In this document: positions 1,412 to 15,667 of the stretch, piece by piece | How the letters are laid out: each line of letters opens with the position of its first letter | Numbering within the stretch: the stretch's first letter is position 1 | Origin: a virus | Reading direction: 5' to 3' (one strand) | IMG/VR virus record: IMGVR_UViG_3300032516_000108 | Span: 1 to 31,785 of that record | Length of the DNA stretch: 31,785 bases | Position numbers and translations under genes: made by a program | The notes under the pieces: generated by a model | Database searches by the model: none | What the model saw: the letters and a program-made list of their open reading frames with translations, nothing else | Told to the model about the DNA's origin: nothing

Positions 1412-1912
1412 ATGGCGAAAAGTTCAAAACAGGTTGGTCGGGGAAGCGTAAAACTTCCTATGGGTGTTGGGCAGTATTTTGAGGTCTACGGCGGGCCGTA
1501 CATGGCAAGACCTAAAAGTTTCGTGGGACTGAAGATGGCCGAGGAAATCACTGCCCCGTTTGATGTCGAAATTCCGACACCGGATTTCAATGTTCCCACG
1601 TACGAGCAGGCTCTTGCGGGCCTGCGTCGGATCTTGCCCTTCATTTTGATCGGTCGCCCGGTGTACGTGGGGTGCATGGGTGGTGTTGGACGTACGGGGT
1701 TCATGCTGGCGATTCTGGCCAAGGCCTGGGGGGTTCCCAGCCCTATCAAGTACGTGCGGTCTCAGTACTACGCTCACGCGGTTGAAACCACCCCGCAACA
1801 GCGTTTTGTAGAGAACTTCAAAATCCCGAAGGATGTTCTGCGCAAGATCAGAGTCTATCGGGTGCTGAAATTCTTTCGTGTTGGTCCCCGGAATATGACC
1901 GATTCTGCTTGA
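1412..1912 (+). CDS. Protein tyrosine / dual-specificity phosphatase-like protein (first copy)
   Basis: Protein of 166 aa with GGAG 7 bp before the ATG. Residues 84-96 (VYVGCMGGVGRTG) carry the C-x5-R-T PTP signature with C88 as the candidate nucleophile and R94 as the phosphate-binding Arg. The usual His before the Cys is replaced by Gly. A WPD-type general acid could be D51 or D58 (PFDVEIPTPDF). Downstream, AVETTPQQRFV matches AVESDEQVEFL of the second phosphatase at 3010, so the two are paralogues. PTPs hydrolyse phosphotyrosine or phosphothreonine/serine by a Cys-phosphate intermediate. Whether the target is host or phage is unknown. The gene has its own promoter at 1358, and the stop codon again overlaps the next -35 box. 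The catalytic family is well supported; the substrate is not. Confidence 0.85.
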   Translation: MAKSSKQVGRGSVKLPMGVGQYFEVYGGPYMARPKSFVGLKMAEEITAPFDVEIPTPDFNVPTYEQALAGLRRILPFILIGRPVYVGCMGGVGRTGFMLAILAKAWGVPSPIKYVRSQYYAHAVETTPQQRFVENFKIPKDVLRKIRVYRVLKFFRVGPRNMTDSA

Positions 1913-1937
1913 CAAACCCCGATTATGGGAGTAAAAT
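1909..1937 (+). promoter_or_regulatory. Sigma70-type promoter upstream of the 345-aa gene
   Basis: Perfect TTGACA at 1909-1914, 17-bp spacer, TAAAAT at 1932-1937. The stop TGA of the PTP gene (1910-1912) lies within the -35. The -10 sits in the loop of an inverted repeat (1924-1946). The next gene starts at 1976 with GGAGGAG at 1962-1968. Confidence 0.8.
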
Positions 1938-1946
1938 TCTCCCATA
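1924..1946 (+). promoter_or_regulatory. Inverted repeat around the -10 box, likely operator
   Basis: Eight-base arms TATGGGAG (1924-1931) and CTCCCATA (1939-1946) are exact reverse complements and flank a 7-base loop, TAAAATT, which contains the -10 hexamer. A repressor dimer bound here would cover -10 and the start site. It could also form a hairpin in DNA, but there is no T-run, so it is not a terminator. Confidence 0.6.
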
Positions 1947-1975
1947 GAATCTAAGTCTCACGGAGGAGCGAGTTA

Positions 1976-3013
1976 ATGTCAGATGTTGTTACCTTGTCGG
2001 CCTTGGCGGATCACCCGTTAACCCAGGTGGCTAAGGTCAATGTCTCGGCCAAGCAGTTGGCCGGGGTCTTGAAAGCGGTGGACAAGAAGAATGTTGATAG
2101 GTCCCCGGACATCGAGGCCTTCAAGTTCTACGCGCTGAATCAATTGGTGGGGTTGATTCAGAAGCGCTTCACGAAGAACGAGATCCTGCCAGATTGGGCC
2201 GCAACACCAGTTTCTATGTACATCCAGGAACTGGAAACCCAGCATCGGCCTCTGGTCTGGTACACGTTCCTGATTATTACCAGGGAATTTCGTCACCTTC
2301 TCAATAAGAGCATACTGGTACCTCCCCAGTACAGCCCTGATTTTACTGCATTCTGTCCGAAAATCGCGGACAACTCAGACAATGATTTGATCAATAAGTG
2401 GTTGGCCTATGCTCCTGGTGACGACCTGGAGCACTATTGCCTGTGCATGGAAGCGGGGTTTAATACTCCGAAGTGCTGGGCAAGTAGTTATGGGGGCAAG
2501 CCCTGGGGTCGGATTGCCAAGGCCCTGGCTAAGTACATCGGGGGTCATACCAGCGCAGAGATGTTTATCGATACTGCCTACACCCTGGCCCATAACGGGG
2601 GTCCTATATTTAACAAGAACATGTTCTATCACAACGGGACGGCTTCGTTCAAGAAATTGCTTGACGTTCAGCGCTCTGGGCAGATGTGTGAATTCCTGTG
2701 GTCTAAACAGTACATAAAATGGTATGGAAAGTCTACATCGTTGTCTCAGTTGGAGAGTCTGAGGCTTGTGGTAGAGGCCGCGAAGCCCTGGCTTTCAGAA
2801 ATCGAGGATCACGTTGACTGGTACAAGGTGAAGGCCTTGGGTGGGACTGAGAACCATCTGGAAATGCAGGCTGCTCAGGACAAAGATCATGGGCCTAAGC
2901 AACCCAAGAGCACCATTGTTGAGGGCATGCCGGTAAAAGTTACGGGTTCGATTGCGGTCTATCCCGGTGAAGTTGTTCAGGTCTTTACACGGATCAAAGG
3001 GAGTCAAAAGTGA
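1976..3013 (+). CDS. Unknown 345-aa protein between two phosphatase genes
   Basis: ATG 1976 has a strong GGAGGAG site, and its own promoter lies at 1909. I do not recognise the family. Visible features are a helical N-terminal third, a central stretch with conserved-looking residues (YGGKPWGRIAKALAKYIGG, then ID.AYTLAHNGGPIFNKNMFYH), several Trp and Cys residues, and a C-terminal beta-like tail (MPVKVTGSIAVYPGEVVQVF). The HNGG.IFNK..FYH segment is rich in His, Asn and Tyr and could be a catalytic or ligand site, but this is speculation. It has no signal peptide or membrane segment. It lies between two PTP-like genes and shares a GTGA overlap (3010-3013) with the second, so all three may act together. 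It could be a substrate or partner of the phosphatases. Confidence 0.75.
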   Translation: MSDVVTLSALADHPLTQVAKVNVSAKQLAGVLKAVDKKNVDRSPDIEAFKFYALNQLVGLIQKRFTKNEILPDWAATPVSMYIQELETQHRPLVWYTFLIITREFRHLLNKSILVPPQYSPDFTAFCPKIADNSDNDLINKWLAYAPGDDLEHYCLCMEAGFNTPKCWASSYGGKPWGRIAKALAKYIGGHTSAEMFIDTAYTLAHNGGPIFNKNMFYHNGTASFKKLLDVQRSGQMCEFLWSKQYIKWYGKSTSLSQLESLRLVVEAAKPWLSEIEDHVDWYKVKALGGTENHLEMQAAQDKDHGPKQPKSTIVEGMPVKVTGSIAVYPGEVVQVFTRIKGSQK

Positions 3014-3762
3014 GCAAGAAATTTGGTCAGTCTTGGGGCGGTCAGAAAAGCCTGGGGACGGAGGACTACGAAAGTGATATGGCCTGGGGAGCTGCTGAGA
3101 CGACTTTGAAATTCAAACGCTGTCACGAGACGCATCCGGTGTTGAAAATCGGTGGCGGCACGGTATATGGTGGGTCTTGTTTGACGCCCATTCCGGAGGC
3201 GGACGTGTACATCGGATTTGAGCACGGGATGAAAATTGGGCCACATCATCCGTGGGAAAGAACGCCACTCCATGTGTTTTTTCCGATCACCGACAGGCGT
3301 GCTCCGAGTTCTGCCAAGGAGTTCAAGAAGTTGATCGATTGGACCCTGGCTCAACTTGAGCAGGGTAAGACCCTTCACGTTGGCTGTGTTGGTGGGCATG
3401 GGCGAACGGGCCTGTTCCTGTCGGCGCTGTTTGCGACCCTCAATGGGGATCTTAATGCGATCACGACCGTGCGAAATATGTACTGCAAAAAGGCCGTGGA
3501 GTCAGACGAGCAGGTTGAGTTTCTGGTGAAGCACTATCAAGTGCATGCTGTTCCTGGCACGGACGCCTCTAAGCACAGCCATAGTGGGAAGTTCAATGGG
3601 TCTGGCAAGGATTGGGGCAAGAGTTGGGTGCCCACGGCACCGGCCAAGATCGGAGGTAAGGAGTTCAAGGGCGCGGGTCAGTCCAGGATGTTCGAAGGCC
3701 ACACCAGGACCTGGGCGCCCTTGGGTATGAAAGACAAGTCTATCTGGGGTTCGTTGTTCTAA
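3010..3762 (+). CDS. Protein tyrosine / dual-specificity phosphatase-like protein (second copy, C-terminal extension)
   Basis: Protein of 250 aa from GTG 3010, which overlaps the TGA of the gene before it, with AAGGGAG at 2997-3003. The PTP signature is HVGCVGGHGRTG, with C126 and R132. As in the first copy, Gly replaces the His before the catalytic Cys. D95 in FPITDRRAP is a good candidate for the general acid. AVESDEQVEFLVKH follows, as in the paralogue. It has about 80 extra N-terminal residues and a C-terminal tail of about 70 residues rich in Gly, Ser, Lys and Trp (from SKHSHSGKF to WGSLF), likely disordered and perhaps nucleic-acid or protein binding. Two PTPs in one short region is uncommon for a phage. 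The enzyme class is well supported and the target is unknown. Confidence 0.85.
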   Translation: MSKKFGQSWGGQKSLGTEDYESDMAWGAAETTLKFKRCHETHPVLKIGGGTVYGGSCLTPIPEADVYIGFEHGMKIGPHHPWERTPLHVFFPITDRRAPSSAKEFKKLIDWTLAQLEQGKTLHVGCVGGHGRTGLFLSALFATLNGDLNAITTVRNMYCKKAVESDEQVEFLVKHYQVHAVPGTDASKHSHSGKFNGSGKDWGKSWVPTAPAKIGGKEFKGAGQSRMFEGHTRTWAPLGMKDKSIWGSLF

Positions 3763-3766
3763 CCCC

Positions 3767-3795
3767 TTGACAAACCCTGCCCCTGTGGTTATACT
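3767..3795 (+). promoter_or_regulatory. Near-consensus sigma70 promoter
   Basis: TTGACA at 3767-3772, 17-bp spacer, TATACT at 3790-3795, followed by a gene at 3829. This is the strongest promoter in the window. GTGGTTA occurs twice (3785-3791 and 3803-3809), 18 bp apart, flanking the -10 and start region, and may be an operator. The block CTGTGG plus ATACTAAG is shared with the promoter at 7813. Confidence 0.85.
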
Positions 3796-3828: not shown

Positions 3829-4716
3829 ATGGCGGTCATGATGATGTCAACCTCGACTGAAAACTTTTTTAACGGGCTGTTCCCGATGTCGGCTAGTACG
3901 ACCTCGGTAATGGACAAGGTAGCCTATCTTGAAAAGAATGGCGCCAAGATCCAGATCGGACTGTTTCAGTTCTCGATCAAGGTGACCGATGGCCTTGTGG
4001 TAAGCGCCCAGTTGCCCTGCTCTAGTTCTAAGGTCGCCCTGCACGCTGTACCTGAGGGCGGTCTGCTGGAATCAATTCGGCAGAGTGTGGCCGATGTGAT
4101 CGAGAAGGCCCTGGTCGCCCAGGCTTCCCTGCCGAAACAGGCATTTGCCCTGGGTGAGGCTAATCTGGCGGCGAAGCTGGCTGGGGCCGAGAAACAGTCC
4201 GAACCTGTGACTCTTGCTAGTTTGCTCAAAAAGCACTCAGAACCTGACACGGTTGAAGTGCCAATTGCGAAGCCCAAGAGCACGAAGTACGTCAGCCCCC
4301 CTTCCGTGAAAGAGACGTTGGCGGCATCAAAGGCCAAGGACAACCCTAAAGTTCTCGATACCGATGGTCTGGTGTCGGCGGTGATTCTGTTGAAAGATGC
4401 CAAGGCCATTGGGCAGAAGTGCAAGGGCACCAGCGCCGGGGCTGTCTATCGGGCATTTGCTCTGGGTAAGGTCAATCTGGCGGCGAAGCTGGGTGAGGCG
4501 GGCAAGACCGTGAGCATCAGGGCCGAATCCCAGGACTTCACCCCTGTTCTGAAAGACAAGCTCAAGGCGGCGTCTTTTTCAGACAATGGCACGTACATGA
4601 GCATTCACGTGACGCTCGGTGCGGTGCCAGCCATCCGAACCATCGGCGCCCTCTTGTACTCCATGGATTTGGAGTTCGACAAAATAAGTACGAACAAGGA
4701 CTTTTTCAATGTCTAA
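3829..4716 (+). CDS. Unknown 295-aa protein with an internal duplication
   Basis: ATG 3829 with GGAG at 3818-3821, directly downstream of the strongest promoter in the window, so expression may be high. I do not recognise the family. Residues 105-122 (AFALGEANLAAKLAGAEK) and 209-226 (AFALGKVNLAAKLGEAGK) are near-identical. The second copy follows VILLKDAKAIGQKCKGTSAGAVYR, which looks like a folded unit, while the first lies next to a Lys/Pro/Ser-rich linker (about 130-175). The N-terminus is Met/Ser-rich and has a beta-like segment (IQIGLFQFSIKVTDGLVVSAQL). No catalytic motif is visible. It overlaps the next gene by 8 bp and probably starts a short operon running to 5403 or into the polymerase gene. 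Confidence 0.75.
   Translation: MAVMMMSTSTENFFNGLFPMSASTTSVMDKVAYLEKNGAKIQIGLFQFSIKVTDGLVVSAQLPCSSSKVALHAVPEGGLLESIRQSVADVIEKALVAQASLPKQAFALGEANLAAKLAGAEKQSEPVTLASLLKKHSEPDTVEVPIAKPKSTKYVSPPSVKETLAASKAKDNPKVLDTDGLVSAVILLKDAKAIGQKCKGTSAGAVYRAFALGKVNLAAKLGEAGKTVSIRAESQDFTPVLKDKLKAASFSDNGTYMSIHVTLGAVPAIRTIGALLYSMDLEFDKISTNKDFFNV
4141..4492 (+). repeat. Two 40-bp direct repeat copies inside the 295-aa gene
   Basis: Copies at 4141-4180 and 4453-4492 match at 36 of 40 bases, with 19 identical bases in a row (4162-4180 and 4474-4492). They are in the same frame and encode AFALG..NLAAKL. The high nucleotide identity suggests a fairly recent duplication or gene conversion rather than only protein-level constraint. 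Confidence 0.75.
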
Positions 4717-4993
4717 CCCTATGCTGTCCAGCAGTAGTGCTTTGAATACCTCGCCTTCGTCCGGTAAGGAGCGAAGCCAGACATCGAAGACCGTGGATGT
4801 CCTTAAATCCATGAAGGTCGGGGATAAGGGGATTGTGCGGGTGAACGGCATTGACCGAGAGTTGTTCTGTGTAGAGCGTCTGGACGATGGGAACAAGACC
4901 ACTTTCAGGTACAGGCTCATGGCGTACGGCATTGAGATTGCCGAACTTCAGGCTGTTCGTACCAATTCGAACTGGACTTTCAAAGGACTGTGA
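4709..4993 (+). CDS. Unknown 94-aa protein
   Basis: ATG 4709 overlaps the end of the previous gene (stop 4714-4716). The first 30 residues are Ser/Thr-rich and probably disordered. The remainder (VLKSMKVGDKGIVRVNGIDRELFCVERLDDGNKTTFRYRLMAYGIEIAEL) looks like a small beta-barrel or SH3-like fold with alternating hydrophobic residues. No family is recognised. The stop TGA (4991-4993) overlaps the start of the next gene, which suggests coupling. Confidence 0.65.
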   Translation: MSNPMLSSSSALNTSPSSGKERSQTSKTVDVLKSMKVGDKGIVRVNGIDRELFCVERLDDGNKTTFRYRLMAYGIEIAELQAVRTNSNWTFKGL

Positions 4994-5403
4994 TGAAAAA
5001 CGAGCTGATGTTTAAGTTGGCAGACACCATGAACATGCACTTGTACGAAGTGGATGGGAAGGTCCGGGGGTTTGAGGCTAAGCACGCTGATGTCGGTGGG
5101 GCCTGGAATCTCTCTCACCATGTGACGCTGATCGTGGACGAGCAGGGAGACAATCTGGTGACCGCGTTCGTGCGGATCATGAAGCACCTGTGGTCCTACG
5201 TAGTAGTCACAGAAGCCGGAATCTGGGCTATCATGTTCGACGGTGATAGCGCCAAAATTCGAGTTGGGTCCGAGCACGAGTTCGGACTCGGCAGTGCGTC
5301 TGCCAGCTTGAAGAAGATCAGAGGCAGTGCTACCCAAGCTTTTTCTATGGAGAATGGCATATGGATTCAGGTGGATGCCAAGGTCTTGATGGGCTCGACC
5401 TGA
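4993..5403 (+). CDS. Unknown 136-aa protein
   Basis: ATG 4993 is chosen over the in-frame GTG at 4990 because it lies 5 bp after AAAGGA (4982-4987). The start shares a base with the preceding TGA. The protein looks beta-rich (HHVTLIVDEQGDNLVTAFVRIM, WSYVVVTEAGIWAIMFDGDSAKIRV) with a short amphipathic N-terminus. No motif or family is recognised. It ends 7 bp before the DNA polymerase start. That gene has no clear ribosome site, so polymerase translation may depend on ribosomes finishing this gene. Confidence 0.65.
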   Translation: MKNELMFKLADTMNMHLYEVDGKVRGFEAKHADVGGAWNLSHHVTLIVDEQGDNLVTAFVRIMKHLWSYVVVTEAGIWAIMFDGDSAKIRVGSEHEFGLGSASASLKKIRGSATQAFSMENGIWIQVDAKVLMGST

Positions 5404-5410
5404 TTAGCAG

Positions 5411-7816
5411 ATGACTCTGACTATTCTCAGCAAGGACTCGAAGTCCAAGGTCCTTAGCGCAATAGGGCAGATCACTAAAAACCACCCGGCCACAGAGTTG
5501 CAGGTTCTGACTGGCCTGGATCAACTCCACCTTATAACCAGTAGCACCAGGGCCATTCTAAGTCTTGGTCCCCAGATTCTGGAGCAATTCCAGATGATGG
5601 GCGTTGTTCCAAAGGGACGAACAGTAACGGGCCTGCGCAAGACCACGTTCCTGTTCAAGACCATACCCACGTTGTTCAGCTATAACGTAGGGATTGCAGA
5701 AGTTGACTACGGATACTACGTAGATCTGCTGACGGACGTACAGCTTGCGTACAGGCTTGAACACACGGGCACTACCCACCCTATCACCGGAAAGTACGAG
5801 TACGTCCAGGACCTGTCCAAGGTCGTCCAGGAGGTCGTTACCCTGCTTCAAACCCAGGAGCACGTGGATCTGGCGATGGACACCGAGACTCTGGGGCTGG
5901 ATAGATTCCACCCAGAGGGGTATCTGGTCAGCCTACAGTGGTCCTGCAAGCCCGGTACTGCCCGGGTTCTGTACTTTCCAAACAAGGCCGAGAGCTTGAG
6001 GTTCCTGCTCAAGCTGGAGAACCAGGAACATTTACATTGGCTGCTGAATGAGCCACGGATTCGATTGGTTGGGGCCAATGCCAAGTACGACACCGAATGG
6101 ATATACGAGCAGACTGGCATAGGGTGTACCAATCTCAGGTTTGACACCACGTTGGTAGGGTCGTTGCTGGATGAAAATCGCAGCAATGGTTTGGATGTCC
6201 ATGCGAAGATCTACACCGATGGGATGGGCGGGTATTCGGACGAGTTCGACAAGAACGCCGATAAGTCCAGGATGGATCTGGAGTACTTGAAGAGCCCAGA
6301 GAAGTTCTTGGCGTACTCCGGGGGAGACCCGGATGCCACCTTGCAAGTAAAGCATGCCCAGAGATTGGAGTTGCTGGAAGACCAGCAGCTAACTGGGTTC
6401 TATGTGAACATCCTGCACCCTGCGGCGAGGGCGTTCGAACATGTAGAGCGTACAGGGTGCTTGGTGGACTCCCAGGCGTACGCCGAATTGAATAGCGAAC
6501 TGAAAGTAGACCTGAATCTACAGGTCAACCGAGTGAAGCAATTGATTGGAGGGATCCTGGCGGTTAAACACCATGATCCAAAAGTAGAGGGAGGTCTGAA
6601 CCTGACCAAGGCCAGCCTGATTACGGATTTCATGTTCACACCCCGAGGTCTGAATCTAAAGCCGTTGATGGTGACCGAGAAATCGAAGAGCCCGAGTACG
6701 GCCATGGAGCATCTGCTGATGTTCAAAGACCACCCAGAGGCCCAGGAGTTTGTTCAGGCTCTGAGTGAGTACAGCAGTACGAACAAGACCAGGAACACCT
6801 ATGTTACTGGGTTTTTGAAGCACCTTAGGCCCGATACCCGATTTCACCCCAGCTACTGGTTTTTTGCCGGGAACAAGGATGAAGGGGAGGGCGGGACCAA
6901 CACCGGCAGGCTCAGCGCCAAGGACCCTGCTTGGCAAACTTTACCCAAGCACACGAAGTGGGCCAAACCTTTGCGTCGGTGCATGATCGCCCCACCAGGG
7001 TACGTGATCGGGGAGTTCGACTACAGCCAGGGAGAGTTGAAAGTTATGGCCTGTTTGGCTAACGAACAGGAGATGATCAGTGCGTATTTGAATGACATGG
7101 ACTTGCACGTGCTCACTAGCGGCACGGTCCTGGGCTATACGTACGAGGAGATGCTGGCCCTTCAAGTTACGGACCCGGAGAAATTCGAATCCGTGCGTCA
7201 GTTGGGCAAGGCCGGCAACTTCGGGCTGATCTACGGCATGGGTGTTGATGGGTTCGTGGAGTACGCGCGCACGACCTTCGGAGTGAAGCTCACCAAAGAT
7301 CAGGCTGCTGATTTTAGAACCGGGTTCTTCAATACTTACTCAGGCCTCGTTACCTACCATCAGACGTACAAGGCGTATGCCAAGAAGCATGGATTTGTTC
7401 GAAGTCCTCTAGGTCGGGTTCGGCATCTGCCGTTGATCAACAGCCCCCACAATGAAGTACGGTCCAAGGCCGAGCGACAGGCCATCAACAGCCCCGTGCA
7501 GGGCGCGCTATCGGACATGACCATCTGGTCTATTGCCGAACACAAGCGGGCTCTCAGGCACATCCAGGCCCCGTGCTTTGGGGCAGTTCACGATGCCGGG
7601 TACTACTACCTGCCAGAGGATCAGGCAGAGCAACTGGCCAAGATCATAGTGGAAACGATGTCCAATCTGCCGTTCGATCTGGTAGGTTGGAAGCCCCAGT
7701 TGCAGTTCACGGCGGACGCGAAGATCGGGCCGAACATGGCGGACTTGAAGAAGTTGAAGTTCAATATCAGCGAGCCCTATAAGGGTCCTGCGCAATTGAT
7801 TGCACAAACCGCTTGA
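5411..7816 (+). CDS. polA-like: Family A DNA polymerase with 3'-5' exonuclease
   Basis: Protein of 801 aa that replicates phage DNA in the cytoplasm. The exonuclease motifs are present: D157-T-E159 (MDTETLG), NAKYDTEW, and YSGGDPDATL, so proofreading is probably active. Polymerase motif A is DYSQGELK (D537), and motif B is RQLGKAGNFGLIYG (R596, K600, F604, YG). Motif C is VHDAGYY: the catalytic Asp (D728) is kept, but the usual Glu of the HDE triplet is Ala. The F in motif B matches Phe762 of E. coli Pol I, which disfavours ddNTPs. About 140 residues before the exonuclease domain match nothing I recognise. There is no 5'-nuclease domain. The start lacks a clear Shine-Dalgarno site. The last codons include a GCAATTGATTGC site, and the stop lies within the next -35 box. 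Confidence 0.95.
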   Translation: MTLTILSKDSKSKVLSAIGQITKNHPATELQVLTGLDQLHLITSSTRAILSLGPQILEQFQMMGVVPKGRTVTGLRKTTFLFKTIPTLFSYNVGIAEVDYGYYVDLLTDVQLAYRLEHTGTTHPITGKYEYVQDLSKVVQEVVTLLQTQEHVDLAMDTETLGLDRFHPEGYLVSLQWSCKPGTARVLYFPNKAESLRFLLKLENQEHLHWLLNEPRIRLVGANAKYDTEWIYEQTGIGCTNLRFDTTLVGSLLDENRSNGLDVHAKIYTDGMGGYSDEFDKNADKSRMDLEYLKSPEKFLAYSGGDPDATLQVKHAQRLELLEDQQLTGFYVNILHPAARAFEHVERTGCLVDSQAYAELNSELKVDLNLQVNRVKQLIGGILAVKHHDPKVEGGLNLTKASLITDFMFTPRGLNLKPLMVTEKSKSPSTAMEHLLMFKDHPEAQEFVQALSEYSSTNKTRNTYVTGFLKHLRPDTRFHPSYWFFAGNKDEGEGGTNTGRLSAKDPAWQTLPKHTKWAKPLRRCMIAPPGYVIGEFDYSQGELKVMACLANEQEMISAYLNDMDLHVLTSGTVLGYTYEEMLALQVTDPEKFESVRQLGKAGNFGLIYGMGVDGFVEYARTTFGVKLTKDQAADFRTGFFNTYSGLVTYHQTYKAYAKKHGFVRSPLGRVRHLPLINSPHNEVRSKAERQAINSPVQGALSDMTIWSIAEHKRALRHIQAPCFGAVHDAGYYYLPEDQAEQLAKIIVETMSNLPFDLVGWKPQLQFTADAKIGPNMADLKKLKFNISEPYKGPAQLIAQTA
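7792..7803 (+). promoter_or_regulatory. 12-bp dyad site 1 (GCAATTGATTGC)
   Basis: Perfect copy on the + strand, in the last codons of the polymerase gene (codons CAA TTG ATT GCA), 9 bp upstream of the -35 box at 7813. Half-sites are GCAAT and ATTGC with a TG centre. This is one of six perfect copies. Confidence 0.7.
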
Positions 7817-7841
7817 CAATCTATTTTTTCTGTGGCATACT
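7813..7841 (+). promoter_or_regulatory. Sigma70-type promoter after the polymerase gene
   Basis: TTGACA at 7813-7818, 17-bp spacer, CATACT at 7836-7841. The polymerase stop TGA (7814-7816) lies within the -35. The spacer ends with TGTGG, giving an extended -10-like TG. It drives the genes from 7876 to the terminator at 9348. Confidence 0.8.
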
Positions 7842-9446: not shown

Positions 9447-11249
9447 ATGGCTGTATCGATAAAGACCAAACCGGCAACCTCTGCTGCTCCCGACTCCCCA
9501 GTATTGACTGTAATCGCCAAGGTAATCAAGGGCGATACGTACATGGTCATGGCGGATGCCGCTAAAGAACTGGAAGACGAGTTTGCCAATAATGGGCTGT
9601 ACACCGGGGAGGGAAGTACTCTAGCCATACTCCCCCCATATCCCCCCAGGAGTCTCCTTTCCCTGGTCACACATAACAATGTGCTGAACCAGTGTGTGCA
9701 GGCTATGGAAGTGAACATCGATGGCACTGGTCATGAGTTTGTTTCGGCAGAGGAGGGTGGAACTGTTGATGAGAAGGAAAAAAGTGCGGCTGCTGACTTT
9801 TTTAATGAGCCCTACCCAGGCCGATCATTCATAAGTCTGCGTAGGGACTTGCGCAGAGACCTGGAGTCCATCGGGTACGGGTTCTTGGAAGTACTTCGCA
9901 CCATGGGTAAGGAAGTAGCGGCCCTCAGGCCCATGGATGCCCAGACTATCAGGCTGGTGAGACTGGGTAAGCAGGTACCCATGAAACGCATGGTAAAGCG
10001 TGGGGGCAAGGACGTGGAGATCACAATCAACGAACGTCCTCGCCGGTTCATGCAGATATTCAATGCCCAGCACCGGCAGTATTTCAAAGAATTTGGCGTC
10101 CCTCTTAGTTTGAGTCGAACTACTGGGGAGTGGGCCGAGGATGGCAAGTCTTTTCCCGTGGACGAAGAAGCCACTGAACTCATGTTTTTTGGCGTGGACA
10201 AGGACGCCAGTGGGCCGTATTTCGTACCCAGGTGTATCAATCAATTACCGGCTGTGGTTGGAAGCCGCAAAGCCGAGGAACAGAACTTGGAATTTTTTGA
10301 TAGTGGGGGTATGCCACCGGCCATCATCTTCATTCAGGGTGGGGCTCTGGCTGGGGAAAGCGCTGCACAGCTACGAACGTACCTGAGCAATGCGAACAAG
10401 AAAAAGGGTCGGGCGGTTGTCGTGGAGCTTGCTAGTAACAGCGGGTCGCTGGAAAGCTCGGGCACGGTATCTGCCAAGGTGGAGCGCTTTGGGGCAGAGC
10501 GGGCGAACGACAGCATGTACGCCAACTACGATAAGGCTGCGGAGGAGCACGTACGGGTTGGTTTTAGATTGCCTCCGTTGTTCTTGGGATTGTCTCAGGA
10601 CTATAACTACGCCACGGCTGTGACCGCCTATCAAGTGGCAGAGGCCCAGGTGTTTCAGCCTGAGCGTGTGGAATTCGATGAGCGAATCAACAAGTCCTTG
10701 ATTAAGGCCCTGGGTTGGAAGACCTTGAAATTCAAGAGCCTGCCGATCACCATCAAGTCCGTGGAAGAGACTTTCAAGGGCTTGGCCTTGCTGGATGGAA
10801 AAGTGGATCCAGAAGAATTTGTTATGGAGGTGAACAAGACCATTGGTTCGGATCTGGAGTACAAGGAGCCCCCAGAGCCACCGCCTGCTGCGGAGCCTTT
10901 GATCGATCCCCATACCAATCTACCGTACACCGAACCAGTAGCCCCACAGGTGCCCCCTGCTGGTCCAGGAGGCACTGTGGTGCCACCCAAACCTAAACCC
11001 CAGGTGGTGGTGGTGCCGATCAAACCCCCAGTGAAAGCGGCGAAGACCGAGCGCTTGCAGTTGATAAAACTCGCTAGGGCCTGGGCCGAGGTCGAGGGCC
11101 TGCTGGATCCGATGCTGCACCTGAACGAGGGCGAGGTCGAAGTGGTTCGGAAATCAGTAGAAGACCTGGGTACTGAGGACCGAGTGCTGCTCACAGAATT
11201 AGTGAGAGAGTATGCTCGGCCTGCTCCAGCGCGCGGACATGACCACTGA
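9447..11249 (+). CDS. Phage portal protein
   Basis: Protein of 600 aa from ATG 9447, with GGAG at 9437-9440. The frame is open upstream, but the promoter and terminator place the start here. Portal-like features: an N-terminal region with LLSLVTHNNVLNQCVQAMEVNI, FFNEPYPG, RRDLRRDLESIGYGFLEVLR, and a core with AEEQNLEFFDSGGMPPAIIF and PPLFLGLSQDYNYATAVTAY, the usual clip/stem pattern of HK97- and SPP1-like portals (compare PBSX XkdE). The C-terminus is Pro-rich (about 495-560), then helical. The portal forms the dodecameric DNA channel at one capsid vertex. It overlaps the next gene by 38 bp. No terminase gene lies before it, which is unusual. Confidence 0.85.
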   Translation: MAVSIKTKPATSAAPDSPVLTVIAKVIKGDTYMVMADAAKELEDEFANNGLYTGEGSTLAILPPYPPRSLLSLVTHNNVLNQCVQAMEVNIDGTGHEFVSAEEGGTVDEKEKSAAADFFNEPYPGRSFISLRRDLRRDLESIGYGFLEVLRTMGKEVAALRPMDAQTIRLVRLGKQVPMKRMVKRGGKDVEITINERPRRFMQIFNAQHRQYFKEFGVPLSLSRTTGEWAEDGKSFPVDEEATELMFFGVDKDASGPYFVPRCINQLPAVVGSRKAEEQNLEFFDSGGMPPAIIFIQGGALAGESAAQLRTYLSNANKKKGRAVVVELASNSGSLESSGTVSAKVERFGAERANDSMYANYDKAAEEHVRVGFRLPPLFLGLSQDYNYATAVTAYQVAEAQVFQPERVEFDERINKSLIKALGWKTLKFKSLPITIKSVEETFKGLALLDGKVDPEEFVMEVNKTIGSDLEYKEPPEPPPAAEPLIDPHTNLPYTEPVAPQVPPAGPGGTVVPPKPKPQVVVVPIKPPVKAAKTERLQLIKLARAWAEVEGLLDPMLHLNEGEVEVVRKSVEDLGTEDRVLLTELVREYARPAPARGHDH

Positions 11250-12594
11250 TCTACGGGCGTACTTGGATCTGGAGGACCTCCTAGTAGGCAGGTTGCAAAG
11301 TGAATGGGCGGATGAAGCACGTACCTTTCAAAAACAAGTTGAAGACGCTATCGCGGTTGAAGATTGGGCGGCAGCGACGGCCGCCGCAGAAGAGATCGAC
11401 CTTAGTGCGGTGGGTGAGCGCTCCAAGGATTTTGCGTACGCGGTATTTAAGGGGGCAATTGATTTCGGTGCTCAGGTGGCTGCTGGGGGACCGGCGCTAG
11501 TCACGAGCCTGGGGTTCGATCAATCGCTACGAGCCTCTGTAAACCAGTTGTTGAAGTACCTTGAGTGGCAAGCTACTGCCCAGGCTCAGGAGTCGGCCCT
11601 GCAATCAATTGCACAGGCTCAGCAGACGCTGGTACAGAAGTTCAACCCGTACCATGACGAACTAGGGCAGTTCACCTACAAAGAGTATGCAACCCATGTG
11701 TCGATAACCGGCATGTTCGCTGGTAGGCAGAACGTGGACACCTACAAAGCCAGAATGCGGATTCAGACCAATAAGTTTGGGCCTGATGCCCAGGACAAGC
11801 ACCTGGAGATCATCGGAGCATTACAGACTGTCGTCGAAGATCAGTTGGCCAACCCAGAGTATGGCTACAGTGAGAGTGACGCTGCCTACCTTCGCGGTGA
11901 CCGTGCTTATGCTATGGACGTGTTTCAAAACCGTGTAGAAGAGGTACTTGGATTCAAGATCAGAGATGACCGGCACCCAGAGACCGGTGAGTACCTGTAC
12001 CACGCTACTGAATTCAAGCTCGATACAGTTGCAGGCCAGAGAAAGTATGCGAGAGCCGCTCTGGAGATGATGGCCGGGGCCTCTGCGGTTCGAGATAATC
12101 AGGTCAGCCTGAGAATCGTCACCGAGCGTCGGGACTTTGTAATCGGAGACATGCGCGGTGAGTACGCTGGGTCGTACACCCCCGAGACTGGCAGAATTGA
12201 CTTGTACAGTGCCCACGTCAAGAACGAGACCGCGCTGTTGGGCATCCTGGCCCACGAAGTGCACCACCATAAGTGGACTTCAGTTTCTCAGAGTTCCAAA
12301 GGCCGAGAGTTTGAAGAGGCCTGGATGGACGTTAGGCCAGAGGCCCGAGACCCGAAGACGTTCTACCACCCGGCCAAAGCTGATCTAGCATCGTCTGATG
12401 GGGTGACGGACTATTCCAAGGACTGGTGGGCCTCTGCTGGCAGATCAACTGAAGTGCATCACAAGGCCGTGAACGAGACCTTGGCAGAGATAGCCACCCT
12501 GAGTCCCTCGGTACGGTCCAAGACCGTGGCCCCGGCCTGGCAAGACCTGTTCAAGTTGATGAACAACCTGTACGACCAGCAGGGCCGTCCATGA
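11212..12594 (+). CDS. Head-associated protein with linker motif and HExxH metallopeptidase-like domain
   Basis: Protein of 460 aa. ATG 11212 lies inside the portal gene, after GAGAGAG. Residues 1-140 are helical and Ala-rich. Residues 141-160 (VQKFNPYHDELGQFTYKEYA) are a linker also found in the next two genes. In the C-terminal domain, AHEVHHHKW (H348, E349, H352) fits HExxH, and NETLAEIA (421-428) supplies a Glu that could be the third zinc ligand, as in gluzincins. The protein is likely packaged in or near the portal, by analogy with MuF-type effector proteins that carry toxin or enzyme domains after such a linker. The activity is inferred: cleavage of a capsid or host protein are both possible. 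It ends in an ATGA overlap with the next gene. Confidence 0.7.
   Translation: MLGLLQRADMTTDLRAYLDLEDLLVGRLQSEWADEARTFQKQVEDAIAVEDWAAATAAAEEIDLSAVGERSKDFAYAVFKGAIDFGAQVAAGGPALVTSLGFDQSLRASVNQLLKYLEWQATAQAQESALQSIAQAQQTLVQKFNPYHDELGQFTYKEYATHVSITGMFAGRQNVDTYKARMRIQTNKFGPDAQDKHLEIIGALQTVVEDQLANPEYGYSESDAAYLRGDRAYAMDVFQNRVEEVLGFKIRDDRHPETGEYLYHATEFKLDTVAGQRKYARAALEMMAGASAVRDNQVSLRIVTERRDFVIGDMRGEYAGSYTPETGRIDLYSAHVKNETALLGILAHEVHHHKWTSVSQSSKGREFEEAWMDVRPEARDPKTFYHPAKADLASSDGVTDYSKDWWASAGRSTEVHHKAVNETLAEIATLSPSVRSKTVAPAWQDLFKLMNNLYDQQGRP
11601..11612 (-). promoter_or_regulatory. 12-bp dyad site 2 (reverse orientation)
   Basis: GCAATCAATTGC, the reverse complement of site 1, within the metallopeptidase-like gene (codons CAA TCA ATT GCA, QSIA). 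Flanking bases extend it to the perfect half-sites TGCAAT and ATTGCA. A near-copy with one mismatch (GCAATTGATTTC) lies at 11455-11466. Confidence 0.65.
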
Positions 12595-14111
12595 TCGAGC
12601 ACCGTGTAGTAGATGGTCGCCCGGTGAGCGTTCAATGGCTGACGGCCATGGGCAAGCCCTGCGAGAAAGACGACGCTTGGCTGATCAGGTTGATGTACGA
12701 CGATGGAGAGACCGGGTTGGTCGTGATCAACAGGACTCCAAAATCGGTGCAGAAGTTCAACCCCTACCACGACGAACAGGGCAGATTTTCAACCAAAGAT
12801 GCTGCTAACTTCCACTCCATTGGGGGTGTATTCGACAAACAACGTGCGAAAGCCGCCGAGTCTTCAAAGCAGAGGGCCGCTGCTATCAGGCTCGAAGCCA
12901 GGAAGCATCTAGAGAAGTACGTGGATTTCGACGCACCCATAGCCCGCATCCATGAATTGAATGCCAGGATCAAAGAAATAGGGGAGGAACAAGCAAAGTA
13001 TGGTTACGGCTGGGATCTGCCTCAATTGAGAGCCCTCCCAGTAGAAGGTGAAGGCTTTGGGGGCGTTAGCGAAGACGAGATTCGTGAGGCGTTTTCCGCT
13101 GAGCACTCTTCTGTGTACATGGCGATGTCCCGGTCCACTACCTTGAAGATCTTGGGTGGGGACACCATAAAGAATAGCCTGGAAACTGGAAGAGGCACAT
13201 TCAAGGTCATCGGGGAAGAGCGTGCGAAAAAGGAAAAAAAGTTTCTGGGCGTGCGAGCCGAGGTTTCAGATCCTGCCTCATTTCCAAAGTATGGATTTGT
13301 GGGCAAGAAAGGGGCCATGGTAGATCAGAACATCGTGGGCTTCGGGTACGGGGGGTTGTACCTGGAGTTCTCTGACACAGTTCGGAAGAGGACCACGGTG
13401 ACCATCGGTGATAGTTTTGACAGCAATTCTTCGGGTCAGTACAGGGTGCCAGCTCCTATTGATGCCGTAGGGGGCGCTCAATTTCATGGAGACGATTCCA
13501 CCAATCTGTTCGCCGTGGCTACGAGAGGCATCAGCAAGTTCAAGGAAAACAAACAGAACCGAAACGTTCGTGATCTGGCCATAACCTCCCCGTACATTGA
13601 AGCTCAAGTTTACGGACGGTTGGATACTGACAGTATTGCGGCCATTCATGTTGAATCCAAAAAAGACGCCTTGGCCTTGCAGGCTTCAATGAGAAAAAAC
13701 GGGTTGAACATCCCCATCAAGCCCACAAATACCCACACGGTATTGAAACGGCTGTCAGAATCGTACATAGGTGATTGGCAAAAGGTTTCTTCCAAGGATG
13801 TGGCTAACCTGGGAGATGACTACATTGCCAAAGGTTTCGAGCTTACGGGGGCTAATGTCTGGGCGTCTGGGTGGAGAAGCAGTCTTTCAAAGTTAAATTT
13901 GCCGAAGATCAAAGCTGCGATGACAAAGTACCCCTCTGCGAAAGATGTGCCCCCCAGTTTGAAGCGTGAACTCATGATCGAGTACATCGATGAGGGCCGC
14001 AAAGGTTCAGCCGGAACTCTGCCGAAAAATTTGCACAGAAAAGCCTCTGTAAGAGATGGGTTTACTGAGGACGTGTTCAACTCGTCCCTGTTGGAGAGGT
14101 ACCCTCAATGA
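12591..14111 (+). CDS. Linker-containing head protein with DUF3626-like C-terminal domain
   Basis: Protein of 506 aa from ATG 12591 (ATGA overlap). Residues 53-70 (VQKFNPYHDEQGRFSTKD) are the shared linker, preceded by a short N-terminal domain. The region about 200-370 contains GFGYGGLYLEFSDTVRKRTT, VTIGDSFDSNSSGQ and SPYIEAQVYGRLDTDSI. The pattern of an Arg-containing strand, a Gly-Asp-Ser turn and a late Glu-Ala-Gln-x-x-Gly strand resembles DUF3626 proteins and, more loosely, ADP-ribosyltransferase folds (catalytic Glu/Gln near the end). This is pattern recognition only. As with its neighbours, it may be a head-carried effector delivered into the host. The C-terminal 130 residues are helical and basic and unassigned. 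Confidence 0.6.
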   Translation: MIEHRVVDGRPVSVQWLTAMGKPCEKDDAWLIRLMYDDGETGLVVINRTPKSVQKFNPYHDEQGRFSTKDAANFHSIGGVFDKQRAKAAESSKQRAAAIRLEARKHLEKYVDFDAPIARIHELNARIKEIGEEQAKYGYGWDLPQLRALPVEGEGFGGVSEDEIREAFSAEHSSVYMAMSRSTTLKILGGDTIKNSLETGRGTFKVIGEERAKKEKKFLGVRAEVSDPASFPKYGFVGKKGAMVDQNIVGFGYGGLYLEFSDTVRKRTTVTIGDSFDSNSSGQYRVPAPIDAVGGAQFHGDDSTNLFAVATRGISKFKENKQNRNVRDLAITSPYIEAQVYGRLDTDSIAAIHVESKKDALALQASMRKNGLNIPIKPTNTHTVLKRLSESYIGDWQKVSSKDVANLGDDYIAKGFELTGANVWASGWRSSLSKLNLPKIKAAMTKYPSAKDVPPSLKRELMIEYIDEGRKGSAGTLPKNLHRKASVRDGFTEDVFNSSLLERYPQ

Positions 14112-15667
14112 CGACCTTTTGCACTGACGGCGACCGTACTTTCGCCATACAAGATACCCATGTTTTTGAATTGGAAGATAGTGAGTGGGTGGGTTTGGAC
14201 TGTTCGCTTGAGCTGCTGGCTAAGTTCGTACCCGGGTTGGAGGACCTGCCCGCGAGGGATGTTTCCACGCCTTTTTTGGAGCCCGTTCAAAAAGCAAACC
14301 CCTACCGTGATGCCGAAGGCCGGTACACGTCCAAAGAACACGCAAAGACCGTAGACACCCTGGAAACTGATCTGCACCGTCAAATGCAGTGGATCCAGGA
14401 ACAGGCCAAGTTACATGGTAAGGAGACCCTAGATCAATTGTTGACCGAGGATCCGGGGTTGTTCATGGCCCTGGGTAAACAATGGCGTAGGCACCACACG
14501 TACAAGGCCGACCCCATCAGAGCCCTTACGAGTTTCAAAGAGGATGGGGACGCGCTGTTGCAGATGATCAGCGGCCTGCACATAAATCGACTCGCAAGTT
14601 GGGGATTCATTGCCGAGTCGGACATGCGCGGCCTCAAAGGCTACCGATTGAGTGCCGTGCTGGACAACCGCACCAGTGAATTCTGCAAGTTGATCAACGG
14701 CCGAACGTTCTTGATCGAGGACGCTCGTCCGATTATCGAGAACGGCATTCATGCAGAGGATCCGAACGATCTGCGGGTGATCCAGCCCTGGCCTCGCCAG
14801 AACAAAGCGGATATCGAGGCCTACGGGAAAATGTCGGACGCTGAGCTTGTGGCGGGGATCATGCACGTACCCCCGTTTCACCCCAGTTGCAGGACGATCA
14901 TGGTCCCGGTGACGGCTTTGACTGGAACTAAGCCCAAGGTCTTGCCCGACCTGCAAGAGTTTCTAAGCACCATCCAGACCTTCAAAGATCTGGGAATCAA
15001 GCTAAGTCTTGCCCAGGTAGAGGTATGGAATACTCAAGTTGGTTTGAACCCAGCAGTGTTGATGAGCACGTTGTCCAACACGTTGTTGGCCGACGCCCTG
15101 GCAGTGAATAGTTGGGACATAAAGATCACTGCTGGCGAGGATGTGAAGCTTAATTGGGAGACAGCGAGTCCCCTGGCTTTTTCATTCGAGGGGTCGCTGG
15201 TGTACTCTCATTTCACCGGAGTTCTGAAACAACTCAGTCCAGGTTTCAAGGACATCACTGACTACAAGAAGGTCAGCCAGTACTTTAGTATGTACGAGAC
15301 ACAGGTAGTGGCCTACGGCTTGTCCGTGGGAGCCACGACCGTACAGGTACTGGTAGAGCCCGGGAGCGCCAGTACCTACTTGGCCCTGGGATACCTGCCA
15401 TCAGCCGGGGCCTGGAAGACCATAAGTAAGAACCTGCGGATTAAACTAGGGACGGACTTTCAGGAAGAGCTATCGGGGCTCACCCAGGAGATGCGACAGT
15501 TATTGAATCAGATACTGGACTCTGCTGATCCGTACGCCGCAGCGGCGCTGATGGATCTGGGACTGCCCACGGGGTTGGTGGTGTCGCTGTTGGCTGATGT
15601 TACTTTCACAGGGTTCCTGGATCTGACCAACTCCCAGATGGTCTCCAGGCATGGAAGTCACCTATGA
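14108..15667 (+). CDS. MuF-domain minor head protein (phage Mu gpF / SPP1 gp7 type)
   Basis: Protein of 519 aa from ATG 14108 (ATGA overlap). A short N-terminal domain is followed by the shared linker at 60-80 (VQKANPYRDAEGRYTSKEHA). The MuF domain spans about 140-270: LSAVLDNRTSEFCKLINGRTF (D186, R188, T189, C193) and VPPFHPSCRTIMVP (255-267), the classic C-terminal signature. MuF proteins bind the portal, enter the capsid and may be injected. The 250 residues after the domain are unusual for simple gpF and include a GNAT-like look (STYLALGYLPSAGAW), but I cannot assign them. It is probably modular like the two genes upstream. An ATGA overlap leads into a 46-aa ORF. Confidence 0.85.
   Translation: MTTFCTDGDRTFAIQDTHVFELEDSEWVGLDCSLELLAKFVPGLEDLPARDVSTPFLEPVQKANPYRDAEGRYTSKEHAKTVDTLETDLHRQMQWIQEQAKLHGKETLDQLLTEDPGLFMALGKQWRRHHTYKADPIRALTSFKEDGDALLQMISGLHINRLASWGFIAESDMRGLKGYRLSAVLDNRTSEFCKLINGRTFLIEDARPIIENGIHAEDPNDLRVIQPWPRQNKADIEAYGKMSDAELVAGIMHVPPFHPSCRTIMVPVTALTGTKPKVLPDLQEFLSTIQTFKDLGIKLSLAQVEVWNTQVGLNPAVLMSTLSNTLLADALAVNSWDIKITAGEDVKLNWETASPLAFSFEGSLVYSHFTGVLKQLSPGFKDITDYKKVSQYFSMYETQVVAYGLSVGATTVQVLVEPGSASTYLALGYLPSAGAWKTISKNLRIKLGTDFQEELSGLTQEMRQLLNQILDSADPYAAAALMDLGLPTGLVVSLLADVTFTGFLDLTNSQMVSRHGSHL

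Follow-up and report, generated by a model that had tools for sequence, protein, structure and literature searches.

The window analysed here, a stretch of 31,785 nucleotides of viral DNA, contains two genes for putative phosphatases (PTP-A and PTP-B) that flank a third gene, which we call the hub. These three open reading frames are present as described in the first-pass annotation of this DNA, and the motifs that it had listed could all be read in the sequence: the two CX5R signatures, the Gly that precedes each of them, the AVE-x3-Q-x2-F segment in both phosphatases and HNGG.IFNK in the middle gene. The genes and signals of the region are as follows.

2–313, + strand: putative 3′ end (last ~100 codons) of the gene for a dikinase, a truncated pyruvate phosphate dikinase (PPDK); the remainder falls outside the contig, to its left
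355–786, + strand: zinc-ribbon and probable winged-helix protein between the dikinase and PTP-A, with a CPKCGS...C.CG motif; homologues in 20/54 loci
796–1062, + strand: small conserved protein, possibly CsrA-like; homologues in 45/54 loci
1059–1361, + strand: small conserved protein with a CxxxxCxxC motif; homologues in 43/54 loci
1358–1386, + strand: sigma-70-like promoter before PTP-A, TTGACA-17-CACAAT (consensus match only)
1412–1912, + strand: PTP-A, 166 aa, dual-specificity-type cysteine phosphatase; P-loop C88–R94 at 1673–1693, Asp58 at 1583–1585
1909–1937, + strand: sigma-70-like promoter before the hub, TTGACA-17-TAAAAT
1976–3013, + strand: hub, 345 aa, phrog_20946; motif H206–K214 at 2591–2617
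3010–3762, + strand: PTP-B, 250 aa, paralogue of PTP-A; P-loop C126–R132 at 3385–3405, Asp95 at 3292–3294
3767–3795, + strand: sigma-70-like promoter after PTP-B, TTGACA-17-TATACT
3829–4716, + strand: conserved gene, 295 aa, between PTP-B and the polymerase; homologues in 51/54 loci
4990–5403, + strand: conserved gene, 137 aa; homologues in 45/54 loci
5411–7816, + strand: family A DNA polymerase, the constant right-hand neighbour of the block

Gene order and expression signals

The order dikinase, small genes, PTP-A, hub, PTP-B, DNA polymerase is found in 54 loci drawn from annotated phages and IMG/VR contigs, and it is kept in phages of Stenotrophomonas, Rhizobium, Rhodobacter and Vibrio that are only distantly related. 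In Rhodobacter phage RcZahn the dikinase is gene 6, the hub is gene 10 and the PTPs are genes 9 and 11. The phages that carry this block form a family of siphophages of roughly 80–120 kb. PTP-A adjoins the hub in all 48 loci where this is visible, and PTP-B follows the hub in 48 of 51 loci. To judge from this conservation, the block is an ancient, constantly linked gene set of the phage family. The linkage, together with the 4 bp (GTGA) that the stop of the hub and the start of PTP-B share in the window, strongly suggests that the middle gene is a partner of the phosphatases, as had been proposed in the first-pass annotation. The hub and PTP-B overlap or lie within 4 bp of each other in 21/49 loci; the starts of open reading frames in this census are the first possible start codons, and longer overlaps in it are unreliable.

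Sigma-70-like matches number four in the window, compared with 0.45 expected. The fourth, again a TTGACA promoter with a 17 bp spacer, is located at 7813–7841, and all four lie at gene boundaries of the block. The sequence TTGACAAA is found at the 1358–1386, 1909–1937 and 3767–3795 promoters and nowhere else in the window. This arrangement suggests that the hub and PTP-B are a translationally coupled pair and that PTP-A is a separate unit. Since PTP-A and the hub each have a promoter-like site of their own, co-expression of these genes is not required, a point against the phosphate-transfer module proposed below.

The gene at the position matching 796–1062 in Vibrio phage VH2_2019 (L079:12061-12540) matches Pfam CsrA at 1.9e-6, and a Pfam search with the window copy gave no match. 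A CsrA-like translation regulator would be unusual in a phage. The gene at 3829–4716 likewise gave no match in a Pfam search. It contains an internal repeat (FALGEANLAAKL / FALGKVNLAAKL), and its label in Vibrio phages is 'transporter' or 'pyruvate decarboxylase'.

The two phosphatases

By motif and profile, PTP-A and PTP-B are members of the cysteine-based (CX5R) phosphatase superfamily. Their P-loops read CMGGVGR and CVGGHGR, respectively, and the common AVE-x3-Q-x2-F segment is C-terminal. The catalytic Cys and Arg of the P-loop are identical in 100% of the aligned rows (49 for PTP-A and 47 for PTP-B), and an Asp located ~30 residues before the Cys (Asp58 in PTP-A and Asp95 in PTP-B) is also invariant in these rows. 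From its position this residue is likely to be the general acid. Because no aligned relative departs from the Cys, the Arg or the Asp at these positions, both proteins are probably active enzymes. Loss of the catalytic Cys in relatives, which the first-pass annotation had named as a refutation, was looked for, and the Cys was found to be kept in every row. The residue preceding the Cys is Gly in every copy of both proteins in these alignments; as it always replaces His, the classical HCX5R subgroup is ruled out. Invariant residues that are particular to PTP-B are Cys38, His42, His130 and Cys159.

The Pfam model Tc-R-P is matched by 18/18 copies of PTP-A and 18/18 copies of PTP-B. For the window proteins the values are 4.8e-8 for PTP-A, which is above the model cut-off, and 2.6e-5 for PTP-B, just under it; PTP-SAK is the second-best Pfam match. 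Profile matches to PDB sequences reach 4e-9 (PTP-A) and 1.5e-11 (PTP-B), and the closest solved structures are those of a Thermococcus PTP (TkPTP; PDB entry 5z59), Sulfolobus SsoPTP (PDB entry 2i6i) and human DUSP23. The phage proteins resemble these enzymes and the two Pfam families in their CxGGxGRTG P-loop and upstream Asp, with significant profile matches. They differ from them in the Gly in place of His before the Cys and in the C-terminal AVE-x3-Q-x2-F segment, while PTP-B in addition has an extra N-terminal part containing the invariant Cys38 and His42 and a long tail.

The two phosphatases are paralogues, as the first-pass annotation had recognized. They belong to the same phage family, phrog_17568 (8e-34 for PTP-A and 2.6e-27 for PTP-B), they find each other in BLASTP (E = 5e-11) and their profiles match with 99.4% probability (E = 3e-21). 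In a tree of 96 sequences the PTP-A and PTP-B copies fall on opposite sides of a single branch with a support of 100/100. This split extends across the phage family and rules out a recent duplication; on this tree the separation is ancient. Two PTPs are rare among phages overall (11 of 50,697 records), in agreement with the earlier remark that duplicated PTPs are uncommon in phages. That remark does not hold within the family that carries the block, where the phylogeny indicates that two PTPs are the ancestral state. PTP-B is absent only from one clade of Vibrio phages that is nested among PTP-B-bearing phages, with a support of 0.865 in the polymerase tree and less clearly in the hub tree, and this nesting points to a single loss of PTP-B.

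PHROG 17568 carries the label 'thymidylate synthase', which is ruled out here as PTP-A and PTP-B match phosphatase models only. The same label is attached to this family in the GenBank records of DLP3, DLP5, SIO-2, sm030 and others, and is evidently a propagated error.

The hub

The hub motif H206–K214 reads HNGGPIFNK. In an alignment of 43 sequences 23 residues are invariant, including Arg103, Glu104, Arg106, Asp199, His206, Asn207, Lys214, Asp230 and Gln232, a pattern that would suit an active site or a binding site. The structure is predicted with confidence (pLDDT 88.6, pTM 0.85) and is mainly helical, with strands in the C-terminal part. A fold search against the PDB gave no match at E ≤ 0.001, and profile searches against Pfam and PDB sequences gave nothing credible. 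Strong matches among viral models (BFVD) are only ∼21–27% identical in sequence and are evidently members of the hub's own family. As modelled, the hub is a protein without a recognized fold. No copies were found in plasmids, and in bacterial genomes the hub was seen in seven contigs only, some of which are MAG contigs of phage-like size.

An HD-domain dNTPase was considered for the hub on the basis of the resemblance of LAHNNGPIFNKG to LAHDLGHTPFGHVG and of HD chains in the Foldseek list. Such chains are frequent in this list, at E ≥ 0.3 and probability ≤ 0.09 (VIA Z ≤ 3.6). This candidate is not supported: the hhalign probability is 0.2%, similar to that of the negative controls, and HN replaces HD in 43/43 sequences.

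The dikinase and the possible role of the block

The product of 2–313 scores 11.5 bits with the dikinase profile A4, compared with a best score of 5.8 bits in 500 shuffles, and aligns with the C-terminus of the dikinase of L027. The gene at 355–786 is ∼59% identical to the gene that directly follows the dikinase in the closest relatives (L006, L007 and L027). Thus weak in score and strong in position, 2–313 is probably the end of the dikinase gene. The dikinase was invisible to the first-pass annotation because the rest of its gene is off the contig. In all 37 relatives with enough upstream sequence, the next larger gene on the left is annotated as 'pyruvate phosphate dikinase'. The PPDK_N (ATP-grasp) and PEP-utilizers (phosphohistidine) domains are present in 35/35 copies, and the PEP-binding C-terminal (pyruvate/PEP) domain is found in 0/35. 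The profile match to solved PPDKs ends at residue ∼537–592 of ∼874. Lys20, Arg83, Asp286, Glu288, Gln300, Arg302 and His415 are invariant, and none of the 184 C-terminal columns reaches 90% conservation. For the copy in DLP5 the structure is predicted with confidence (mean pLDDT 91). Compared with PPDK (PDB entries 1kbl and 9pzl), the phage dikinase has the ATP-grasp and phosphohistidine swivel domains and the ATP-site residues, but ∼184 unconserved residues take the place of the pyruvate/PEP barrel.

The phage thus seems to be equipped to attach phosphate and take it off again by itself, and our tentative reading is that the block is a phage-encoded, reversible phosphate-transfer module. The truncated dikinase would load a phosphate from ATP onto its own swivel-domain histidine and, being without the pyruvate/PEP half, would hand it to another acceptor. 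The most likely acceptor is the hub, or else a molecule that sits in the conserved pocket of the hub. From this product, or from two related ones, PTP-A and PTP-B would take the phosphate off again. The constant linkage, the intact catalytic residues in three enzymes, the loss of the pyruvate domain and the ancient split between PTP-A and PTP-B are observed. A common substrate, an acceptor site provided by the hub and the direction in which phosphate flows are the parts that we infer. We rather doubt the bolder reading that the hub represents a novel type of phosphate acceptor or phosphotransfer protein and that, alongside the pyruvate-less dikinase and a dedicated pair of phosphatases, it forms a self-contained phosphorylation cycle as a core function of the phage family. 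Against the module, linkage alone is no proof of a common reaction, and the other conserved small genes of the block are unexplained by it. Distance correlations corrected for the polymerase are modest (0.43 for hub and PTP-B, 0.36 for dikinase and PTP-A); several unrelated pairs reach 0.30–0.39, and this test did not single out the proposed partners.

In plants, glucan water dikinase and a SEX4-type phosphatase form a pair of a dikinase and a dual-specificity phosphatase that act on one substrate. The likeness of the phage block to this pair would be a functional analogy only; the block contains no glucan-binding domain. Dikinase chemistry directed to an acceptor other than pyruvate, as proposed here for the phage enzyme, is found in HpeHI (PMC12167813) and in the rifampin phosphotransferase RPH (PMC4844700). 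HpeHI is a two-component dikinase in which the chemistry is split over two proteins, between the ATP-grasp and the swivel and acceptor domains, whereas the ATP-grasp and swivel domains are fused in the phage protein. VadK (Rv1127c) of Mycobacterium tuberculosis is, like the phage dikinase, described as a PPDK derivative without the pyruvate domain; it autophosphorylates and binds metabolic enzymes, and the accessible part of its report (PMC13400623) concerns a non-phage protein and describes no adjoining phosphatases or hub.

What is novel is the conserved block and its fold-orphan hub, not the two PTPs as such. Genes labelled as a PPDK 'auxiliary metabolic gene', 'thymidylate synthase', 'tyrosine phosphatase' and 'hypothetical protein' come together as one conserved block beside the DNA polymerase, and two of these labels, PPDK and thymidylate synthase, are corrected. 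This raises the concrete biochemical question of what the pyruvate-less phage dikinase phosphorylates and why two phosphatases adjoin it. Were DNA the target, phages would have a further, new way of modifying their DNA; were it proteins or metabolites, the block would be one of the rare phosphorylation cycles owned by a phage.

The main rival to the phosphate-transfer module is a role in DNA modification, in which the block serves to build a modified nucleotide, sugar or DNA base. The dikinase would phosphorylate either a base or a small molecule, with the hub as the synthase and the phosphatases trimming phosphates, resulting in modified phage DNA. The DNA of DLP3, which bears the whole block, resisted 15/15 restriction enzymes (PMC7326821), but such resistance is reported for this one phage only; no usable statement on the restriction sensitivity of DNA in single-PTP relatives was found in the literature. 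dUTPase or dCTP deaminase genes adjoin some copies of the block. A glycosyltransferase is present in 11/11 annotated phage records with PTP-B, where read within an amino-sugar cluster (DegT aminotransferase, epimerase and PIG-L deacetylase), and neither glycosyltransferase was matched in any hub-bearing single-PTP record. A strict link between PTP-B and the glycosyltransferase nevertheless fails in environmental records: only 9/30 relatives (29/30 of them with PTP-B) have a match, one being a short end match. A deacetylase or aminotransferase occurs in just 6–7 of 23 relatives, and with these counts the sugar cluster looks optional and accessory. As PTP-B was probably lost once in the Vibrio clade, its co-occurrence with the glycosyltransferase in named phages may reflect a single event. 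On balance we consider this role unlikely.

A cluster ahead of the terminase is seen in DLP3 (L061:19670-25095), RcZahn (L063:30393-35184), KarBoss (L071:35069-39968) and V-YDF132 (L077:5897-11150). Its products are a PIG-L deacetylase together with a glycosyltransferase, mostly also an epimerase, a DegT aminotransferase and a methyltransferase, and it is a candidate for amino-sugar modification of DNA or of a surface; in DLP3 it accompanies the restriction-resistant DNA described above.

That the phosphatases act on host proteins, for example by undoing kinase-based defence or the phosphorylation of host tyrosine or histidine residues, was the suggestion of the first-pass annotation and found no support. 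The nearest solved relatives (5z59, SsoPTP and DUSP23) are active protein phosphatases and the PTP-A and PTP-B sites are likely to be active, but PADLOC gave no match for PTP-A, the hub, PTP-B or the dikinase. Counter-defence genes usually form a variable accessory set, whereas these PTPs are fixed core genes that are co-inherited with the phage dikinase, in phages of very different hosts. With the dikinase in the block, the phosphatases are more simply paired with a phage-owned phosphate donor than with host kinases, and we regard action on host proteins as improbable.

An action on RNA ends, as a 5′-triphosphatase or in repair, in which the hub and the small, possibly CsrA-like protein would be the RNA partners, is more improbable still. 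RNA-acting members exist in the phosphatase superfamily, and PTP-SAK, the second-best Pfam match, is a domain named after the 'Swiss Army Knife' protein, an RNA-repair protein; the possible CsrA-like neighbour at 796–1062 would also fit. These profile matches are at the superfamily level, however, no RNA ligase or kinase was found in the block and the dikinase is left unaccounted for.

Least credible, and rejected here, is an ordinary PPDK that boosts host glycolysis beside unrelated phosphatases, as published for Vibrio phages, where the dikinase is described as a glycolytic auxiliary metabolic gene (PMC12038007, PMC9229204, PMC10141217): the PEP/pyruvate domain is missing, the PPDK alignment stops before it, the C-terminal part has no conserved residue and the published model overlaps a solved PPDK over residues 1–527 of 691 only. 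Because the dikinase is without a PEP-binding domain, this description needs correction.

Elsewhere in the window, at 11212–15667, three successive genes have a common segment near NPYHDE.G.(F/Y)(T/S).K (VQKFNPYHDELGQFTYKEYA, VQKFNPYHDEQGRFSTKDAA and VQKANPYRDAEGRYTSKEHA), as though copies had been made of a single module.
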